Shown here: positions 106 to 7,226 of the stretch, one piece after another
How the letters are laid out: every line of letters begins with the position of its first letter
Position numbering within the stretch: the stretch's first letter is position 1
NCBI GenBank assembly: GCA_023132135.1
Contig: JAGLYR010000123.1
Location: 1-11,413, forward strand
Source of the DNA: Candidatus Eiseniibacteriota bacterium
Lineage (GTDB): Bacteria; Arandabacterota; Arandabacteria; JAGLYR01
Direction: 5' to 3'
DNA length: 11,413 nucleotides
Notes under the pieces: generated by a model
What the model was told of the DNA's origin: nothing
Seen by the model: the letters and a program-made list of their open reading frames with translations, nothing else
Databases searched by the model: none
Translations under genes and position numbers: made by a program

Positions 106-153
106 TATTTATGGGTGTTGGCAGACCACATTGTTGCAGTGTCAGAGCGCAGA

Positions 154-175
154 ACTTGTGCATAATCCAGGCTGG
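154..175 (-). repeat. Dispersed CTAGCCTG-family repeat, ATTATGCAC variant (end fragment)
   Basis: Read on the minus strand, this contains AGCCTGGATTATGCACAAGT. It matches 4567-4586 on the plus strand at 18 of 20 bases, and the right arm of the hairpin at 7157-7180 at 18 of 22. The outer end reads CTGG here instead of CTAG. It ends just before the ribosome binding site of the first gene. Confidence 0.55.
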
Positions 176-186: not shown

Positions 187-1464
187 TTGATTTCTGTGAG
201 AGGTTTCGTCTTTGTTCTTGCCGTGGCTGCAATCCTGCTCACGGCGTGCGTGCCGTCCGCCGGGGCCGACCGCATCCTCGTCTACATGGACCTGGAACAG
301 GCCGATCATCTCAAGGCCTACGGACTGGCCTACTGGTGCCTGGAGCAGGGGTTGACGGTGGAGTGGTTGCTCAACTATCGCTGCGGGTCATTCCTCCTGG
401 ACAACAGGGATTTCGTGGCGCGGGCGGCGCTGCTCAAGGGGGTCAGCTTCTCCCGCGTTACCACGGGTGAGGTGGCCAGTATTCACGCCCTGATGGAGGA
501 GGGGAACATGGAGGTGGTTCTCCTGGAGAAGAGCCCGGCGGTGGCCATCTATGCACCACCCGAAAAGGAACCATGGGACGACGCCGTGATGCTGGCCCTT
601 GAGTACGCGGAGATCCCGTACCGCGTGACCTACGACGTGGATGTACTGTCGGGGGGACTGGAGGAGTTCGACTGGATCCACCTGCATCATGAAGATTTCA
701 CGGGCCAGTTCGGCAAGTTCTACGCCAGCTTCAGGAATGCCGAGTGGTACCGGAAGCGGGTGGAACGGATGGAGACCCGCGCCGGCGACGCGGGGTTCCC
801 CACTGTAACGGAGCACAAGAAGGCTGTGGCCCGAGGAATCAAGGACTACATATCTCGCGGGGGGTTCCTTTTTGCGATGTGTTCGGGTACGGATTCCTTC
901 GACATAGCACTGGCCGCCGAAGGGATCGACATTGTGGAGAGTGTGTTCGACGGCGACCCACCGGAAGCAGGGTTTCAGCAAAAGCTGGACTTCCGGAAGT
1001 GCCTGGCCTTCGAGGGTTTCAGCCTGATCACGGATTCCTTCATCTACGAGTTCTCGGATATCGATCAGACCACAACGGCGCTCAGGCGGGGTTACGAGGC
1101 CGACTACTTCACCCTGTTCGATTTCTCCGCCAAGTACGATCCTGTCCCTTCCATGCTGACCCAGAGCCACGTGTCGGTGATCAACGGGTTCCTGGGACAG
1201 ACAACCTCATTCAAGAAATCGCTCATCAAGGACACAGTGGTGATTCTGGGAGAGGTGGAGGGGGCCGGCGAGGTCAAGTATCTTCACGGCAATTACGGGA
1301 AAGGAACGTTCACCTTCTACGGAGGCCACGATCCCGAAGACTACCAACACATGGTTGGGGATCCTCCCACCGATTTGTCCCTCCACCGCAACTCCCCGGG
1401 TTACCGGCTCATCCTCAACAACATCCTGTTCCCCGCTGCGAAGAAAAAAGAGAGAAAAACCTAG
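187..1464 (+). CDS. Exported or lipid-anchored protein, amidotransferase-like C-terminal half (family often labelled 'asparagine synthetase B')
   Basis: From the TTG start the protein has 425 residues. Residues 1-26 form a signal peptide whose hydrophobic core ends in LLTAC. Cys21 fits a lipoprotein box, while AGA-D a few residues later fits signal peptidase I, so anchoring is uncertain. The mature start (ILVYMD..., HLKAYG, EWLLNYR.GSF) matches, from memory, an exported family common in Bacteroidetes and relatives. It often carries the name asparagine synthetase B, but I see none of that enzyme's domains. FLFAMCSGTD around Cys232 and YGKGTFTFYGGHDPEDY around His381 recall class I glutamine-amidotransferase-like folds. 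Such proteins often end NNILF, as here near residue 413. The substrate is unknown. The stop TAG is the first TAG of the repeat element that follows, and the tail KKKERKT is strongly basic. There is no operon partner: the next gene starts 579 bases on. Confidence 0.8.
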   Translation: MISVRGFVFVLAVAAILLTACVPSAGADRILVYMDLEQADHLKAYGLAYWCLEQGLTVEWLLNYRCGSFLLDNRDFVARAALLKGVSFSRVTTGEVASIHALMEEGNMEVVLLEKSPAVAIYAPPEKEPWDDAVMLALEYAEIPYRVTYDVDVLSGGLEEFDWIHLHHEDFTGQFGKFYASFRNAEWYRKRVERMETRAGDAGFPTVTEHKKAVARGIKDYISRGGFLFAMCSGTDSFDIALAAEGIDIVESVFDGDPPEAGFQQKLDFRKCLAFEGFSLITDSFIYEFSDIDQTTTALRRGYEADYFTLFDFSAKYDPVPSMLTQSHVSVINGFLGQTTSFKKSLIKDTVVILGEVEGAGEVKYLHGNYGKGTFTFYGGHDPEDYQHMVGDPPTDLSLHRNSPGYRLILNNILFPAAKKKERKT

Positions 1465-1504
1465 CCTGGATTTCTCACCAGCCATCTGCGGCCAAGGGTT
1501 CGCT

Positions 1505-1551
1505 GTTCTCGCCCTCGCCCTGTCGCCCACTCTCGCACTCGCCACGTCGCC
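1505..1551. repeat. TCGCC-rich low-complexity tract
   Basis: About six imperfect copies of TCGCC/TCGCAC follow one another (TCTCGCCCTCGCCCTGTCGC and on). The tract lies between the outer and inner left ends of the inverted-repeat element and has almost no purines other than G. Confidence 0.5.
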
Positions 1552-1590
1552 GTTTAGCCTGCGTTTCTCACCAGGTTTCGTCGCGAGAGG

Positions 1591-1700
1591 CCGGGCCATG
1601 TGGCGAGAGGCGCCTTTGGACTGAGTCGTTCCCGGAGGCGTAGCCGTGGCTACGCTGAGGAAGCGACGAGGGAAAAGGCGCCTCGCAGCCCATGGACCGG
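1591..1700. repeat. Long imperfect hairpin inside the element
   Basis: CCGG.CCATG at the left pairs with CATGG.CCGG at the right. GCGAGAGGCGCCTTT (near 1603-1617) pairs with AAAGGCGCCTCGC (near 1675-1687). GTCGTTCC pairs with GGAAGCGAC. The apex is a perfect GCGTAGCC/GGCTACGC (1638-1645 and 1648-1655) around GT. Fold-backs of this type are typical of the body of non-autonomous elements. Confidence 0.65.
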
Positions 1701-1737
1701 TACCGTAGCAGAAAACTGGTGAGAAATGCAGGCTAGA

Positions 1738-1854
1738 GTGAAGGGACCCCATGCACAATCGTGCCATGAGGCCTCGGGAACCCAGGGGCAAGGGCCCCTC
1801 TCTTCTTCTCGATTCGAGGGGTCACAGATCACGGATTGGCCAGGGTCCCTTCAC
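1738..1854. ncRNA. Candidate structured RNA closed by a perfect 12-bp stem
   Basis: GTGAAGGGACCC at 1738-1749 is the exact reverse complement of 1843-1854. Inside are smaller stems: GCAC/GTGC near 1753-1764; AGGGGC/GCCCCT (1784-1789 and 1794-1799, 4-base loop); and CTCGA/TCGAG (1808-1818). GGCCCCTC can alternatively pair with GAGGGGTC (1817-1824). It starts two bases after the mobile element ends. Strand, transcription and role are unknown. It could equally be a second mobile fold-back. From 1855 to 2043, before the response regulators, I see no gene and no convincing promoter. Confidence 0.35.
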
Positions 1855-2043
1855 GACCATTATACCAATGGACCCGGAACGCGTCAAGTCGACCGTGGAA
1901 TCTCCCTCTGGGGCGCCGGAAACACCGGAATCGGCGGCAGGAGGGAGCTAAAGACCTCGTCGGCAGGGGTCGATACGTCAAGGGATAGGAAGGATCGGGG
2001 TAACCTCTGAGGAGCGGGAAAGACCTTGGGGAAGGGGTAAGTC

Positions 2044-2490
2044 ATGGATCGTAAGCGCATACTTGTGGTCGATGATGATCGGTTCATTCGACGCGCCGTG
2101 CGGTGTCTCATCGAGTGTCTGGGCCATGAATGCCTGGAAGCTGAAGATGGAGAAGAGGGTTGCAAGACAGCCCTCGCCGAGAAACCGGATCTCATTGTCC
2201 TGGACGTCATGCTTCCGAAAGTCAACGGGTACGAGGTTTCGCGGATGATCAAGGAAGAGGTCCGCAAAGGAGGTGTGGGAAAGAACATACCTATCCTTAT
2301 TGTGACGGCGAGGAGGACCGACTCGGAAGAACGCGAGGAGTTCCTGCGAACGTGGTCGCAGGCGGATGAGTTCATCTACAAACCCTTCGACCTGGATCAC
2401 CTGAGCGATCGGATCAGCGAGTTTCTCGGGGCCGGGGAGGCCTGTTCCCGGGAAGCCTCCGGGGAAGAAGAGATATCGTTGCGCAGATAG
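2044..2490 (+). CDS. Single-domain response regulator (receiver only)
   Basis: This 148-residue protein is one CheY-like receiver with a short charged tail and no output domain. The acidic pocket is Asp10-Asp11-Asp12, the phospho-acceptor is Asp54 (LIVLDVMLP), and the switch and conserved Lys are Thr88 (LIVTARR) and Lys113 (YKPF). All catalytic residues are present, so it should accept phosphate from a histidine kinase, which is not in this window. Residues 70-82 hold an extended Lys/Gly-rich loop (KEEVRKGGVGKN) before the fourth strand. AAGGGG six bases before the ATG is a good ribosome binding site. The next regulator starts 26 bases downstream, so the two are probably co-transcribed and may act in one phosphorelay or compete for one kinase. 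Confidence 0.9.
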   Translation: MDRKRILVVDDDRFIRRAVRCLIECLGHECLEAEDGEEGCKTALAEKPDLIVLDVMLPKVNGYEVSRMIKEEVRKGGVGKNIPILIVTARRTDSEEREEFLRTWSQADEFIYKPFDLDHLSDRISEFLGAGEACSREASGEEEISLRR

Positions 2491-2516
2491 AAGACCATCG
2501 GGAGCGGAGGCAAAGC

Positions 2517-2924
2517 ATGTCAAAGAAGTCCATCCTCGTGATTGAGGATACCAAGTCGGTGAGACAGATCGTGGCAGCCATGCTGCTGGAGGAGGGGTAC
2601 GAGGTTATCACTGCCATCGATGGGAAGGATGGCCTTGAGATGGCCAAGAGGGAGCGGCCTGACTTGGTGGTCCTGGATGTCATGTTGCCGGAAATGAATG
2701 GGTATGAGGTCTGTTGCCGCATCAAGTTCGACGAGCAGTACGAACACATCCCCGTGATCCTGCTCACGGCTCGCCGGAAGGAAGCCGACCGCCGGAAGGC
2801 GGCCCAGACCGGCGCCGACGTCTACCTGACGAAGCCCTTCGAGCGAGATCAGCTGATGCAGGAAGTGAAACGTCTTCTGGAACAGAAATCCGGATCTACC
2901 GCAAATACCCCAGCGCGTTCATGA
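2517..2924 (+). CDS. Single-domain response regulator (receiver only), second of a pair
   Basis: This 135-residue protein is a full receiver: Glu10-Asp11 in the acidic pocket, Asp54 phospho-acceptor (LVVLDVMLPEMNGYEV), Thr84 (LLTARR) and Lys106 (TKPF). No DNA-binding or enzymatic output domain follows, and the last ~15 residues are a polar tail. A GGAGG-like site precedes the ATG by about seven bases. It resembles the upstream receiver through the VLDVMLP..NGYEV core, which suggests an old tandem duplication, though it lacks the longer loop. Its last 29 bases overlap the end of the convergent phosphodiesterase gene, so no terminator can sit between them outside coding sequence. Confidence 0.9.
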   Translation: MSKKSILVIEDTKSVRQIVAAMLLEEGYEVITAIDGKDGLEMAKRERPDLVVLDVMLPEMNGYEVCCRIKFDEQYEHIPVILLTARRKEADRRKAAQTGADVYLTKPFERDQLMQEVKRLLEQKSGSTANTPARS

Positions 2925-4512
2925 TTTCCTGCGCATTCCGGTCCGACGGATCTGTGCCCGTGATGAACTGCGGTTCTTCCTTGCGGCGCGCGTTCTTCCT
3001 GCTGAGCCGTACAGGATTGTCGGCCAGGTGCTCTTCTGCGAAGGCTTCTTCGATGACCCTGCCGTCGAAATCGGTGGGGATCGGCAGTCCCATGAGATAG
3101 AGAAGCGTGGGTGCGATATTCATCAGCTCTGCGTCAAGTTGCTTGCCAATCCTGATCTGGGAACCGTGGAGCACAAACATGCCATCCCGCTCGTAGTTGC
3201 CGGGATACGGGTGGTTCCGTCCGATTTGGAGGGGGCCCACAACCTGACTGAGCTCGAATATCCCCGAGATGGTGATACCTAGAGGCAACACTCCTCGGGT
3301 GGTCTGGAAGAAAATATCCGGCAGCTGGTCGACCCGGTCGCCCGCGTAGATCTCCTCCCGGGTGAACACGCGCCCGACGACCTGTTCGCCCGTTTCGGGA
3401 TCGCTGAATGCCAGGAGCCGTTGCTTGATGTCGTGAACGATCTTCTCGTACTCGATTCCTGATTCCACAATGCCGGTGGGTTCGCGGCCCCTCAAGTTTA
3501 TCCGGATGTGCCCGAAATTGCAGTGGCAATCGGCAATGGAGAACGCTTGGGTCCGGGGCCACAGGACCTGGTACCGGCCGAGGCCGAGATCGTGCTGTGA
3601 TTCCGGGGTGAACGGGATTACCCGGAGACTGTCGTCCAGCCGGCCTCTCAGGTTGAGGAACCCCTCGTCCAGCAACCACCGGTTGATGGAAAAGTAGCGA
3701 TCGTACGGGCCCGGGAAATAGCCGTGGTCCGACAGGACCATCACCGTTGTCTCAGGGCCTGCGGTCTCGATCAGCTGTCCCAGCGCGAGGTCGGCCTGCG
3801 CATACACGGAGTCGATGGCTTCGGGATCTTCGATGTAGAAGTGGCACGCTTCGTCCAGACCCTTGAGCGAGACGACGCAGAGATTCCAGTCCAGCTTTCG
3901 CATGTATCTCGATACCATCCGGGCCCGCTCATCCATGGCCGCGAGGTACTCGTCCAGGGGGCGAGGGCCCTTGAAATGAGGAACATACCCCTTCTGGCGG
4001 AGTTGCTCGGCGAGGTCAGGCGGGTAGGCGAAGACCCCATTCTCATCCGCCGGGATGCCGCTGATGAGCACACCGTTGACTTTGATGGGGGGAAAAGTGA
4101 AAGGCACGTTGACCACGATAACCCGGCCTCCCGCTTCACTCACCAGATCCCAGACCCGCTTCTCGGACGCAATACTGGCGCCCGTGACGGGGTTGCCGCG
4201 GTAAGTTCCCGGAGCCAGAACCGCCCACTGATAGATACCCGTCCGCCCAGGTCCCTTCCCGGTAGTAAGAGCGGTCCATGAAGCAGGTGTGATTGGGGGA
4301 ACGGTTGAGAACAGTGTTCCGTGTGTTCCTTCCCCGATCAGCCGCGCCAGATTGGGGAGCTCTCCCCTGTCGAGCATCGGCTCGATGAACTCGAGGTCCG
4401 CTCCTTCAATGGCCACGACCAGAACCCGCTGGAGATCCTCCGGTCCTCTGCCGCAACCCATCACGAGTGTGAATCCGAGGATGAGGGTGATTGTCCGAAC
4501 TATCTTTGCCAC
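2896..4512 (-). CDS. Type I phosphodiesterase/nucleotide pyrophosphatase-like lipoprotein (alkaline phosphatase superfamily)
   Basis: From GTG at 4512 the protein has 538 residues. Residues 1-20 are a lipoprotein signal (TLILGFTLVMGC, Cys20). The family core follows: VVAIEGAD near residue 36, GELPNLARLIGEGTHG, PPITPASWTALTTGK with Thr75 as likely nucleophile, LDEACHF (Asp220, His224), VLSDHGY (Asp262, His263) and a late His434 (GRNHPYPGNY). These are the metal and nucleophile positions of the superfamily, which hydrolyses phosphomono- or diesters. The substrate here is not predictable. One difference is visible: the first metal ligand, normally Asp in a G-[LF]-D-G motif, is Glu36. The GTG start is preferred over TTG at 4527 because GGAGGG lies seven bases before it and the signal peptide then starts MAKIV. 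It is expected to face the periplasm. Confidence 0.87.
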   Translation of the reverse strand: MAKIVRTITLILGFTLVMGCGRGPEDLQRVLVVAIEGADLEFIEPMLDRGELPNLARLIGEGTHGTLFSTVPPITPASWTALTTGKGPGRTGIYQWAVLAPGTYRGNPVTGASIASEKRVWDLVSEAGGRVIVVNVPFTFPPIKVNGVLISGIPADENGVFAYPPDLAEQLRQKGYVPHFKGPRPLDEYLAAMDERARMVSRYMRKLDWNLCVVSLKGLDEACHFYIEDPEAIDSVYAQADLALGQLIETAGPETTVMVLSDHGYFPGPYDRYFSINRWLLDEGFLNLRGRLDDSLRVIPFTPESQHDLGLGRYQVLWPRTQAFSIADCHCNFGHIRINLRGREPTGIVESGIEYEKIVHDIKQRLLAFSDPETGEQVVGRVFTREEIYAGDRVDQLPDIFFQTTRGVLPLGITISGIFELSQVVGPLQIGRNHPYPGNYERDGMFVLHGSQIRIGKQLDAELMNIAPTLLYLMGLPIPTDFDGRVIEEAFAEEHLADNPVRLSRKNARRKEEPQFITGTDPSDRNAQEIMNALGYLR

Positions 4513-4519
4513 GTGGTTT

Positions 4520-4525
4520 CCCTCC
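4520..4525 (-). promoter_or_regulatory. Ribosome binding site fixing a GTG start
   Basis: On the minus strand GGAGGG stands seven bases before GTG at 4512. An in-frame TTG at 4527 lies just upstream of this motif and has no site of its own. Confidence 0.6.
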
Positions 4526-4564
4526 AATTGGTCTCGGCTCCTAGCTCGTCAGAACATGCTGTCG

Positions 4565-4586
4565 CTAGCCTGCATTATGCACGAGT
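4565..4586 (+). repeat. Dispersed CTAGCCTG-family repeat, ATTATGCAC variant
   Basis: CTAGCCTGCATTATGCACGA and the next two bases share CTAGCCTGCATT with the ends of the 1461-1736 element, then diverge. The diverged part matches the copy at 154-175 (18 of 20 bases). It lies in the divergent control region, not at a gene end. Confidence 0.6.
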
Positions 4587-4598
4587 ATTCCGCCAGGT

Positions 4599-4662
4599 GT
4601 CAAGGGCGGGTCTGGCTGGGTGAGGGGCCACCAACCGCAGTTGGACAAAGATTGCCCTTGAC
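4599..4662. repeat. 9-bp inverted repeat spanning the divergent control region
   Basis: GTCAAGGGC at 4599-4607 is the exact reverse complement of 4654-4662. Between them is a smaller perfect hairpin, CCAAC-CGCA-GTTGG (4631-4644). The right arm overlaps the candidate -35 box that follows, so it could be an operator or part of a mobile repeat. Confidence 0.4.
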
Positions 4663-4686
4663 GGAGTGCGTGTTCAGGGGTAATCT
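4658..4686 (+). promoter_or_regulatory. Candidate sigma-70 promoter for the lamin-tail gene
   Basis: TTGACG at 4658-4663 is followed after 17 bases by TAATCT at 4681-4686. The -35 box matches at five of six; the -10 box is weak. Its GCCCTTGAC context is the same nine bases found at the much better promoter at 7731, which raises its credibility slightly. Confidence 0.3.
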
Positions 4687-4797
4687 CTCGTCGGGGAATC
4701 CAGCATAGAGAGGAGGTGTCTCGGGGTACCGGACAACAGCAGAATGTCAGTGGGTTGATGCCGAGCGATGGGGTGGTTGTGACGAGGAGGTGTGGAG

Positions 4798-5448
4798 ATG
4801 AAAATCGCTTGGCTATTTTTGTGCACGGTGGCTGTTGTAAGCGTCGACATTGCGTCGCGAGCCGAGGAATGGGGAACCATCAGCGCCCGCCGGGACGGCG
4901 CGGGGATCACGATCAACGAAATCCTGGCCGATCCTCCTGAAGGAGAGAGCGGGGATGCTAACCGGGATGGTGAACGGGAAACCTATGGCGACGAGTTTGT
5001 GGAGATCTACAACGCGGGCCCGGACACGGTCAATCTTCGCGGTTGGCAGATTGCCGATGCCACCGGTGTGCGGCACGTGTTTCCCGATTCAGTGAATGTT
5101 GTTCTCCTGCCGGAAGGGTTTGTCACGGTTTTCGGCGGGGGTGTTCCCTCCGGGTTCGGGGAAAACGTGTGGGTGGCGTCCTCTGGGCGTCTGGCGCTCA
5201 ACAACGGGGGAGACCAGGTGACCTTGGTTGCCGTTTCCGGCGACACCGTAGATGTGGTTTCCTACGGGTCGGAGGGGGGGCATAACGAATCGCTGATCCT
5301 GGTTCCCGACGGCGTGGGCGAATGGACAAGACCTTCGGTGGAAGAATGGGATTGGCCCTTCAGTCCGCAGGAACCGAACCGGGGCGATACCGGTGCCGGG
5401 GGCGCGACCTGGGGCCGGGTGAAGCATCAATACCGGTCCCACGGCTGA
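4798..5448 (+). CDS. Secreted lamin-tail-domain (LTD) protein
   Basis: The 216-residue protein starts at ATG 4798, seven bases after GGAGG at 4786-4790; a GTG at 4792 is too close to that site. Residues 1-22 are a signal peptide with a cleavage site around SRA-EE. Residues 38-165 form one lamin-tail domain: INEILADPP, DEFVEIYN, LRGWQIAD, RHVFP, VFGGG, ASSGRLALNNGGDQVTL and the closing SLILVPDG. GDANRDG at 62-68 has the DxNxDG spacing of a calcium-binding loop, and SPQEPNRG is the usual LTD end. LTDs in bacteria are usually modules of large secreted enzymes; here the domain stands alone with no enzyme, anchor or sorting tail. The role is probably extracellular binding, but no ligand can be named. 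It converges on the receiver-XRE-cupin gene. Confidence 0.85.
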   Translation: MKIAWLFLCTVAVVSVDIASRAEEWGTISARRDGAGITINEILADPPEGESGDANRDGERETYGDEFVEIYNAGPDTVNLRGWQIADATGVRHVFPDSVNVVLLPEGFVTVFGGGVPSGFGENVWVASSGRLALNNGGDQVTLVAVSGDTVDVVSYGSEGGHNESLILVPDGVGEWTRPSVEEWDWPFSPQEPNRGDTGAGGATWGRVKHQYRSHG

Positions 5449-5473
5449 TAGCTGACAATCAGGAGACAGAGAA

Positions 5474-5503
5474 GCGGCCCGGACCCCCGAAGGTCCGGGC
5501 CGC
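5474..5503. terminator. Strong GC hairpin between convergent genes
   Basis: The 12-base arms 5474-5485 and 5492-5503 (GCGGCCCGGACC and its complement) pair perfectly around a CCCGAA loop. It starts 25 bases after the stop of the LTD gene and lies 41 bases beyond the stop of the opposing gene. No T-run follows on either strand. It may stop or protect both transcripts but is not a textbook intrinsic terminator. Confidence 0.55.
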
Positions 5504-5527
5504 AGCAGCAAGTGCGCACGCCGGCCG

Positions 5528-5548
5528 CTGGTGAGAAATGCGGCCTAG
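5528..5548 (-). repeat. Solo CTAGCCTG-family repeat end, ATTTCTCACCAG variant
   Basis: On the minus strand this reads CTAGGCCGCATTTCTCACCA plus one base, two mismatches from the right end of the 1461-1736 element. No partner end is found nearby. The TAG within its CTAG is the stop codon of the receiver-XRE-cupin gene. Confidence 0.6.
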
Positions 5549-6486
5549 ATGGTCGGGGGAGTCGTGACCCACAACAGGTGAGCGATCTGATCTCCCGTGT
5601 TCTTCCAGCGGCAGGGCGTGGAAGAATCGAAGTGAGTAGCGTCTCCAGCTTCCAGCAGATGAGTCTCCTCCCCGAAGGAAAACTCAATCTGACCGGCCAG
5701 CACATAGCCGAAAATCTCACCGCCGTTGAACAGGACCCGATCGGAATTGGCCTCGCCCGGCGGAATCGTGTAGAGGAGCGGCTGCAGTTTCCTGTGGGCG
5801 ACGGCCGTCGACAGCAGGTCGGTGTGGATCTTCGAATAGCGGGCCGTGAAGCGCTTGCGGTCACGCTCTCGGGTGATCTTCTGGTCGTCGGCACGCGGGT
5901 CTCGGAAGAAATAGCCGATCTCGACTCCCAGAGTGCCGGCGATCCGGTTCAGTGTGTCGATATGGGGAGATACCTTGTTGTTCTCAACCTGGGAGAGGAA
6001 TCCCTTGGACAGGTGAGTTTTCCGGGCGACCTCGTCCAGCGTCATGCTGGCGGCAAGCCTGAGATTCTTGATCTTCGTTCCAAGATCGATGATCTCGACC
6101 AGCTTGCGGGTCTCCTTTTCCGAGCCCGGTCCGATGGTGCTGTCGACAATCTGCCCGAGTTCCTCGATGTTGACAGGTTTGGTGAGGTAGTCCAGGGCTT
6201 GGCTCTTGGCCGTCTCCGCTGCAGTCTGGATAGACGGATAGCCGGTCAGGACGACGACCTTCACCTCAGTGTCGAATCTCCGAATGCCTTTCAGTACCTC
6301 GGTTCCTTCCATATCGGGCAGCTTCAGGTCCAGAATGGCAAGGTCATAGGCTTCCCGCTTGATGTGAGTCAGTGCTTCGTTGCCGCTGTCGACAGCGGTG
6401 ACTCTATAACCTTCCTTCTCCAGATACTCGGTCAGTACTTCGCGAACGCCCGAGTCGTCATCAATGACGAGGATCTTCTTGCTCAT
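5545..6486 (-). CDS. Response regulator with receiver, XRE-type HTH and cupin domains
   Basis: From ATG at 6486 the protein has 313 residues, with a GGGGG-rich ribosome binding site six to seven bases upstream. Residues 1-118 are a complete receiver: Asp9-11, phospho-acceptor Asp53 (LAILDLKLPDMEG), Thr81 (VVLTGYPS) and Lys103 (LTKPV). Residues 134-193 are an XRE/HTH_3 DNA-binding domain (IKNLRLAASMTLDEVARKTHLSKG... then LSQVEN..VSPHIDTLNRIA). Residues 236-307 are a cupin_2 barrel (GYVLAGQIEFSFG, LEAGDATHF). XRE-cupin proteins usually repress according to a small ligand. Here the receiver adds phosphorylation as a second input. The cupin keeps Glu257 and His285 but not a full metal-binding His set. 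The upstream open frame to 6693 has no binding site and no domain. Confidence 0.88.
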   Translation of the reverse strand: MSKKILVIDDDSGVREVLTEYLEKEGYRVTAVDSGNEALTHIKREAYDLAILDLKLPDMEGTEVLKGIRRFDTEVKVVVLTGYPSIQTAAETAKSQALDYLTKPVNIEELGQIVDSTIGPGSEKETRKLVEIIDLGTKIKNLRLAASMTLDEVARKTHLSKGFLSQVENNKVSPHIDTLNRIAGTLGVEIGYFFRDPRADDQKITRERDRKRFTARYSKIHTDLLSTAVAHRKLQPLLYTIPPGEANSDRVLFNGGEIFGYVLAGQIEFSFGEETHLLEAGDATHFDSSTPCRWKNTGDQIAHLLWVTTPPTI

Positions 6487-6586
6487 CAGTTTCCCCCTTT
6501 GTTGAAGCGTTACGTAAGGGTAAAGCACTCGGTTGGGAAGCTCTGGATGCACTAAGTGTTTCGACAGTTGCAACAGAACACGAACC

Positions 6587-6615
6587 AACATACAAGGCAG
6601 ACGGTATCTTGGCAA
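6587..6615 (-). promoter_or_regulatory. Candidate sigma-70 promoter for the receiver-XRE-cupin gene
   Basis: On the minus strand TTGCCA (plus 6610-6615) and TATGTT (plus 6587-6592) are separated by exactly 17 bases, matching five and four of six consensus positions. Transcription would start near 6580, leaving a leader of about 94 bases. Confidence 0.4.
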
Positions 6616-6700
6616 GTGGTTTTTGGGAGGGTGAACCAGGGCCATGTATGGCTGTTCGCGAGCACGATGGCGTAGGGACCGCCCGGAAAGCAACTTCTTC

Positions 6701-6722
6701 AGTTGTGCCGGAGTTGTGCCGG
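6701..6722. repeat. Tandem 11-bp repeat, possible operator
   Basis: AGTTGTGCCGG occurs twice head to tail, and CAACT-TCTTC-AGTTG (6691-6705) forms a dyad with the first copy. It lies about 90 bases upstream of the candidate promoter of the XRE-type regulator. A further hairpin, AGGGAA/TTCCCT, follows at 6728-6746. A role as a binding site is inference. Confidence 0.35.
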
Positions 6723-6844
6723 GTTTCAGGGAACCGCAGATTCCCTAGCGAATCACGCTCCAGTGGAACGAAAAAAAGAAACCGGTGTTCAGGGGATGGA
6801 AAGAGCTAAAGATTGAGCTTGTCTCGCCGATTATCCATCCAGAT

Positions 6845-6889
6845 GTGGACCAGGACAGGATGGATCCACCATTTCGACGTCTGACGTCT
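6845..6889. promoter_or_regulatory. Dyad and tandem repeat upstream of the HTH gene
   Basis: GTGGA at 6845-6849 is mirrored by TCCAC at 6865-6869, followed by two adjacent GACGTCT copies (6876-6889) that end 26 bases before the GTG start. They could be operator sites. I could not find a convincing -35/-10 pair for this gene. Confidence 0.25.
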
Positions 6890-6915
6890 TCCGTACTCCA
6901 AGGGAGGAGTGACTT

Positions 6916-7119
6916 GTGAAGAGCGTGCTTGAAGACACCATTCTCGACATCGGCGATGCGGCAGACTACCTCCGAATCAAGAAGTGGACCCTGTACCGCC
7001 TGGCCAAAAAGGGCAAAGTCCCTGGAGTGAAGATCGGCGGGCAGTGGAGGTTCAAGAAGGAAGTCTTGGACCAGCTTTTCCTGGAATCCAGCTCGTCTGG
7101 CAGACAGGAACCGAACTAG
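6916..7119 (+). CDS. Small excisionase-family (HTH_17, MerR-like) DNA-binding protein
   Basis: The protein has 67 residues from GTG at 6916, with GGGAGGAG ending seven bases before it. Residues 8-58 are the complete excisionase-type winged helix: ILDIGDAADYLRIKKWTLYRLAKKG, then VPGVKIGGQWRFKKEVLDQLF. The domain binds DNA. Family members act as phage excisionases or, as is likelier here, as small chromosomal regulators, since no integrase, attachment site or phage gene is present. The rest is a short Ser-rich tail (ESSSSGRQEPN). Its stop TAG lies inside a CTAGCCTG repeat. It starts 429 bases from the divergent receiver-XRE-cupin gene and could share control with it, but no direct evidence links them. 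Confidence 0.85.
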   Translation: MKSVLEDTILDIGDAADYLRIKKWTLYRLAKKGKVPGVKIGGQWRFKKEVLDQLFLESSSSGRQEPN

Positions 7120-7178
7120 CCTGCATTTCTAGCCTGGACTGTGTACAAATCCTCCCGGATTTGTACACAGTCCAGGCT
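7116..7178. repeat. CTAGCCTG repeat fragment plus perfect 22-bp hairpin
   Basis: CTAGCCTGCATTTCT (7116-7130) matches the start of the 1461-1736 element, then is cut short by a second CTAGCCTG at 7129. That second copy opens a hairpin with perfect 22-base arms at 7131-7152 and 7157-7178 (AGCCTGGACTGTGTACA...) and a 4-base TCCC loop. The arms resemble the ATTATGCAC variant at 154-175. The first TAG is the stop of the HTH gene. It may end transcription, but no T-run follows. Confidence 0.65.
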
Positions 7179-7196
7179 GGGCAATAGAAGAGAAGT

Positions 7197-7226
7197 AGAC
7201 AATATTGCGATCTATTGTCTGTTTTT
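7197..7226 (+). terminator. Weak candidate terminator
   Basis: AGACAAT (7197-7203) pairs perfectly with ATTGTCT (7214-7220), followed by G and five T. The stem is AT-rich with a 10-base loop, so termination would be inefficient. It is placed suitably downstream of the small HTH gene. Confidence 0.3.

Follow-up and report, generated by a model that had tools for sequence, protein, structure and literature searches.

Probable IS1380-family miniature element ends adjoining CTAG stop codons in a Candidatus Eiseniibacteriota genome

Introduction

The systems closest to the repeat described here, which adjoins stop codons in an 11,413-nucleotide stretch of Candidatus Eiseniibacteriota bacterium DNA (contig JAGLYR010000123.1 of assembly GCA_023132135.1; this whole stretch is hereafter called the window), are several kinds of bacterial mobile elements and one eukaryotic superfamily. 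Transposons of the IS1380 family are flanked by a 4-bp duplication of CTAG, CTAA or TTAG, as are the miniature inverted-repeat transposable elements (MITEs) reported below, and IS1380A itself duplicates TCGA. YTAR tetranucleotides are also duplicated by IS5, and repetitive extragenic palindromes (REPs) accompany RAYT (Y1) transposases, without target duplication. Bacterial MITEs, e.g. those of Haloquadratum (PMC3119063), are short and non-coding, have terminal inverted repeats (TIRs) and a target duplication and rely on a transposase acting in trans, and the repeats of the window appear to be of that kind. As for piggyBac elements, in whose trees the IS1380 transposases are the outgroup, they produce a 4-bp TTAA duplication, with a minority of TTAG and CTAA, and have TIRs beginning with CCC (PMC10813416).

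The repeat of the window is read here, with a probability of about 0.88, as the TIR of MITEs that would be mobilised in trans by an IS1380-family transposase, insert at YTAR and be tolerated at C-TAG stop codons. IS1380 ends were already known; no paper on the stop-codon habit was found in the open-access literature searched, where the exact TIR letters occurred only in an unrelated virus paper.

Results

A preliminary description of the window had placed copies of the repeat exactly at the ends of the genes stopping at 1464, 5545 (minus strand) and 7119, and this holds to the letter: in each case CTAG is followed by the sequence given in Table 1, and its TAG is the stop codon. The three genes are indeed unrelated, their products having no Pfam match, a response regulator-helix-turn-helix-cupin architecture and an HTH_17 domain, respectively, and the stops not preceded by C, at 2490 (ATAG), 2896 (GTAG) and 11317 (GTAG), are without repeat. 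With up to three mismatches, TAGCCTGCATTTCTCACC is matched five times within the window vs. 0.01 expected, a number reached by 0 of 200 shuffles. The consensus is CTAGCC[T/C]GCATTTCTCACC(AG), and the copies, often opposing each other as inverted pairs, are far from rare: the 3.4-Mb genome holds 228 matches at the same tolerance (115 forward and 113 reverse), vs. 1 for the reversed control. On contigs C1-C130, at least four TIR families with the common pattern YTAR-CCTG were distinguished: family A (CC[TC]GCATTTCTCACC), family B (CCTGG[GA]TTATTCATGAATCC), family C (CCTGGATTATGCA..) and family D (CCTGGACTGTGTACAAATCC), the last three being likewise found at CTAG stops.

IS1380 transposases were searched with PF13701 and assigned by NCBIfam model NF033539 (cut-off 180 bits), which all five transposases tested matched with at least 384 bits. 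Their genes sit between the same TIRs and CTAG, CTAA or TTAG in a Bryobacterales genome and on Pseudomonas, Stutzerimonas and Bradyrhizobium plasmids. Two complete Bryobacterales elements read CTAG-CCTGCATTTCTCACCAG..-CTAG (L168) and CTAA-CCCGCATTTCTCACCAG..-CTAA (L164), the plasmid elements of P. putida and Stutzerimonas (L302, L303) CTAG-CCCGCATTTCTCACAG..-CTAG, and ISPa33 (L304) CTAG-CCCGGATTTCTCATGA-CTAG, while two other plasmid elements are flanked by CTAG (L301) and TTAG (L300). The same or similar ends are bordered by CTAG in Bradyrhizobium and Hydrocarboniclastica and by TTAG in R. leguminosarum; ISBdi2, with CTAA-CCCGTCTTATTCGTAA, is similar to family B. As a whole, the MITE TIRs agree with the complete elements L164, L168, L300-L304 and L308. 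A single IS1380 gene was found in the window's own genome (G000:C139:3029-4375); its right end reads GGTGAGAAATGCGGG-CTAA, its left end was not found, and IS3-like sequence was seen upstream there. The paired elements are mostly 40-370 bp long and without transposase gene. The repeat is thus the TIR of IS1380-family transposons and of non-autonomous MITEs sharing those ends, a described family, where the preliminary description had known of none.

The CTAG lies outside the repeat itself and is a 4-bp target duplication. Among 115 distinct paired elements (pairs are under-counted, the gene caller being simple and the assembly broken at repeats), the in-register flanks match in 71-84% of cases at exactly four consecutive positions, vs. 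mostly 13-36% around them. Identical flank tetramers number 48 in these pairs vs. 29.8 when permuted (0 of 10,000 permutations), and 10 vs. 1.8 expected once CTAG is left out. Two empty sites were found: in one, a Bryobacterales element lies between two CTAG copies (L172) where the sister-genome copy has a single CCAG (L175); in the other (L078), a MITE is nested in a larger MITE as CTAG-element-CCAG, several uninterrupted copies of the larger MITE having a single CTAG or CGAG at the insertion point. A 2-bp TA duplication, considered because TAG/CTA is so constant, was rejected as sole mode, since coordinated TTAA/TTAA, TTAG/TTAG and CTAA/CTAA flanks occur and four positions match.

Concerning stop codons, counts were made in the own genome on contigs C1-C130, a sample of 1.28 Mb in which genes were predicted by a simple caller based on codon usage, which reproduces the genes of the window; the two ends of one element are not independent in these counts. 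When a flanking gene enters a family A end, the TAG is in frame in 34 cases and out of frame in 2 (34:0:2). An end of family A-D directly follows 45 of the 132 CTAG stops, while other intergenic CTAG sites are occupied at about 9% (each insertion counted once) to 16% (per site) and those inside genes in 2 of 130 cases; similarly, CC[T/C]G follows 48/138 CTAG stops vs. about 1.3% of GATC sites. Counted per side, 21 of the 45 family A ends at CTAG lie at stops, vs. 79 of 590 in the control of non-coding CTAG sides without such an end (odds ratio 5.7, p 3e-7), so that the copies do lie at stops more often than CTAG sites in general, and inside genes they number 0 vs. 236 for the control. The excess holds for families A, B and C. 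By tetramer, stop occupancy is 34% for CTAG, 15% for TTAG/CTAA, 8% for ATAG and 5% for GTAG. Where two genes converge, their stops carry an end more often than in tandem arrangements (odds ratio about 4, p about 0.005), as tolerance predicts, because landing between two gene ends breaks nothing.

Partnerless ends are the most enriched at stops (21/40 non-coding sides), but contig-end and paired copies are raised too, and the excess as a matter of retention alone was dropped for that reason. The partnerless fragments at stops differ in where they break off, some being cut after 11-13 bases; deletions eroding the free side, with the gene side fixed by the stop codon, would produce this. Ends at stops are not better conserved than those elsewhere (mean 0.74 vs. 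0.69 mismatches, p 0.64). Separately, TAG is the commonest stop in the own genome (455/851 called genes) as well as in the VGTG loci (73/138), which is unusual for bacteria; the elements at stops are too few to account for it.

For recent copies in the genomes VGTG (Deltaproteobacteria) and JAPPLB (Bryobacterales), the stop share equals that of CTAG in general (4/41 vs. 4/42 and 3/38 vs. 13/78, respectively), which indicates no general preference of the element for stops; both genomes show a depletion of intragenic insertions, significant in the second. In public genomes, more than 100 stretches with the exact motif were found among the matches listed, their carriers there being Deltaproteobacteria, Bryobacterales, other Acidobacteriota, Gammaproteobacteria, Verrucomicrobiota, Planctomycetota, Nitrospira and Rhodohalobacter. 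Many of these copies bound inverted elements with differing interiors, whose lengths range over 40-370 bp and peak near 180 bp; MITEs with these ends thus occur in several phyla. In Rhodohalobacter sulfatireducens, one element (L039) measures 256 bp. Same-class relatives of the window's genome gave at most one weak match to the repeat, and viral contigs none to the exact TIR patterns A and B. By eye, the 180-184 bp MITEs of Deltaproteobacteria, Bryobacterales, Gammaproteobacteria and the window have a common interior layout, with subterminal TCGCGACG-like and CTGCTACGG-like motifs and a central palindrome GGCGTAC..GTACGTYGAG. Many contigs terminate inside these MITEs, at metagenome assembly breaks.

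The features of the window are listed in Table 1. Those overlooked by the preliminary description are the inverted pair at 1558-1732, the CTAG/CTGG ends at 4565 and 151-175 and the hairpin at 7129-7180. At 7116, identity is limited to 11 bases, the second element beginning after CCTGCATTTCT.

Table 1. Repeat ends, flank tetramers and related elements located in the window
Position	Strand	Feature
151-175	-	Family C end, minus-strand reading CCAG-CCTGGATTATGCACAAGTTCT
1461-1464	+	CTAG target tetramer; TAG 1462-1464 is the stop codon of gene 196-1464
1465-1481	+	Family A TIR CCTGGATTTCTCACCAG, left end; right end not found (interior 1482-1553)
1554-1557	+	TTAG, left flank tetramer of the complete 175-bp MITE
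1558-1732		Complete 175-bp family A MITE, TIR CCTGCGTTTCTCACCAGG...CTGGTGAGAAATGCAGG; family recurs in several other contigs
1733-1736	+	CTAG, right flank tetramer of the complete MITE; one base off the left TTAG
4565-4591	+	Family C end CTAG-CCTGCATTATGCACGAGTATTCC; 38 bp upstream of the start of gene 2896-4527
5528-5544	-	Family A TIR, minus-strand reading GCCGCATTTCTCACCAG; no partner found
5545-5548	-	CTAG target tetramer; TAG is the stop of gene 5545-6486 (response regulator-HTH-cupin)
7116-7119	+	CTAG target tetramer; TAG is the stop of HTH_17 gene 6916-7119
7120-7130	+	Truncated family A TIR (CCTGCATTTCT); next element cuts off the remainder
7129-7180		Family D hairpin CTAG-CCTGGACTGTGTACAAATCC TCCC GGATTTGTACACAGTCCAGG-CTGG

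Domains are complete in two of the three window proteins whose stops adjoin the repeat; the product of gene 5545-6486 is full-length, since its cupin match runs to residue 307 of 313. The Rfam scan of the window matched no family. A GC-rich, terminator-like hairpin (CCCGGACCCCCGAAGGTCCGGG) was seen at 5478-5503, just inside the partnerless end at 5528-5548. In the 175-bp family, five of five copies (window, L207, L235, L025 and L230), near-identical in sequence, have mismatched flank tetramers (TTAG..CTAG etc.). The family D hairpins outside the window (L148, L152, L155, L179 and L184) are bordered by YTAG or a variant and, at the opposite side, by a constant CAGAGCAATAGAGAAG, the corresponding stretch of the window being 7133-7200; the hairpin would therefore be one end of a longer repeat. 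Finally, a 1167-bp 'pair' on contig C15 was not retained as a single element: at a distance of about 45 bp from its left end, immediately ahead of the next start codon, lies the decayed partner of that end.

Discussion

Under the IS1380 reading, the transposase would recognise CC[T/C]GCATTTCTCACC ends and insert them at YTAR, preferably CTAG, duplicating those 4 bp. Both strands of any YTAR contain TAG or TAA, so that an element landing at a C-TAG stop would leave the gene intact: a gene ending in C-TAG would be a ready-made target, with one CTAG copy remaining as its unchanged stop codon. Intragenic CTAG sites would be hit as well, but gene-destroying insertions would be lost, and survivors would pile up at stops and in intergenic DNA, most of all at convergent gene ends. 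Later decay would trim the gene-distal part, the gene-proximal end staying anchored at the stop. In the own genome, where the one IS1380 copy found lacks an end, the MITEs were probably mobilised in trans, and purifying selection together with deletion is the likely cause of the excess at stops. Tolerance and retention account for the stop pattern, in that order, because contig-end and paired copies are raised at stops along with the partnerless ones. The preliminary description had proposed insertion at CTAG and, with it, tolerance of the element at genes ending in C-TAG, and the target duplications, the empty sites, the IS1380 transposons and the reading-frame test all bear this proposal out.

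Several observations weigh against this account: no complete autonomous IS1380 element was found in the own genome, of which the assembly is fragmented; about half of the ends there have no recognisable partner; imperfect duplications, chiefly TTAG..CTAG, are common among the pairs; and tolerance alone predicts the pattern of VGTG and JAPPLB but not the additional enrichment of the own genome. As for the imperfect duplications, they are one-directional, with 8 TTAG..CTAG and 3 of the mirror CTAG..CTAA vs. 0 CTAG..TTAG and 2 of the mirror CTAA..CTAG: the outermost base tracks the target, whereas the base adjoining the TIR (G-CC...GG-C) tends to the consensus. It is conceivable, though unlikely, that IS1380 takes the bases flanking it along when it moves, as thought for the piggyBac tetranucleotide; if so, the element could write a TAG beside a gene, and some GTAG/ATAG stops would have been edited on insertion.

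The excess at stops in the own genome, common to families A, B and C, could also be taken as active targeting of stop codons or 3' ends of genes by the element, e.g. via transcription termination or DNA structure, beyond mere tolerance. We consider this improbable, as the complete recent MITEs of VGTG and JAPPLB show no such excess, occupancy tracks the tetramer, and the favoured convergent gene ends are the least harmful places. A repeat recruited as a signal at 3' ends (for termination or mRNA protection) and kept after stops by selection, the other role offered by the preliminary description, would fit the presence of an end at one third of the C-TAG stops, the perfect 44-48 bp hairpins formed by some copies right after the stop and the greatest excess lying between convergent genes. 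It is nevertheless very improbable: copies at stops are not better conserved, the bias is absent in the two other genomes, the window has no Rfam match, same-class relatives lack the repeat save for at most that one weak match, and most ends at stops are partnerless fragments, which form no hairpin because their break-off points vary.

The few ends found at GTAG or ATAG stops, non-canonical targets, would suit genes that the insertion, or a deletion after it, had truncated or fused, the TAG of the repeat becoming the new stop. There is hardly any chance that this is so, since the TAG lies in the target duplication and must therefore pre-exist in an intact insertion, out-of-frame entries are nearly absent, and two of the three window proteins have complete domains. 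Lastly, REP/RAYT-like palindromes or another family such as IS5 come to mind, given that the small hairpin copies resemble REPs and that YTAR targets are common to IS5; this is the reading to which we give the least credence, for the transposases between the exact TIRs in several genomes and plasmids are IS1380 (only IS1380 transposases were examined), and the 4-bp duplication seen in the pairs and empty sites is contrary to REPs.

More generally, a transposon whose target tetramer holds a stop on both strands would have a safe landing at every gene ending in that tetramer. With a mobile-element end directly after about one third of the C-TAG genes in the own genome, such elements shape 3' untranslated sequences. 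Annotators gain a means to recognise IS1380 MITEs, which break metagenome assemblies, and the junction set may serve to ask whether IS1380 moves like piggyBac.

Compared with known systems, the window elements share their TIR with the IS1380 copy of pKF715A (CCCGCATTTCTCAC), but differ from IS1380 elements in being without transposase and only 44 to about 400 bp long. Unlike bacterial MITEs in general, they are associated with the stop codons of flanking genes and have the same TIR across phyla; no paper describing either feature was found in the open-access literature searched. The likeness to piggyBac, which prefers TTAA, a target that also contains a stop codon, and whose hosts are eukaryotic, is one of trees, duplication and TIRs. 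Finally, as with REPs and bacterial interspersed mosaic elements (BIMEs), the elements are intergenic, multicopy, small hairpins, often 3' of genes, but they differ from these palindromes by their IS1380 ends and 4-bp duplication.

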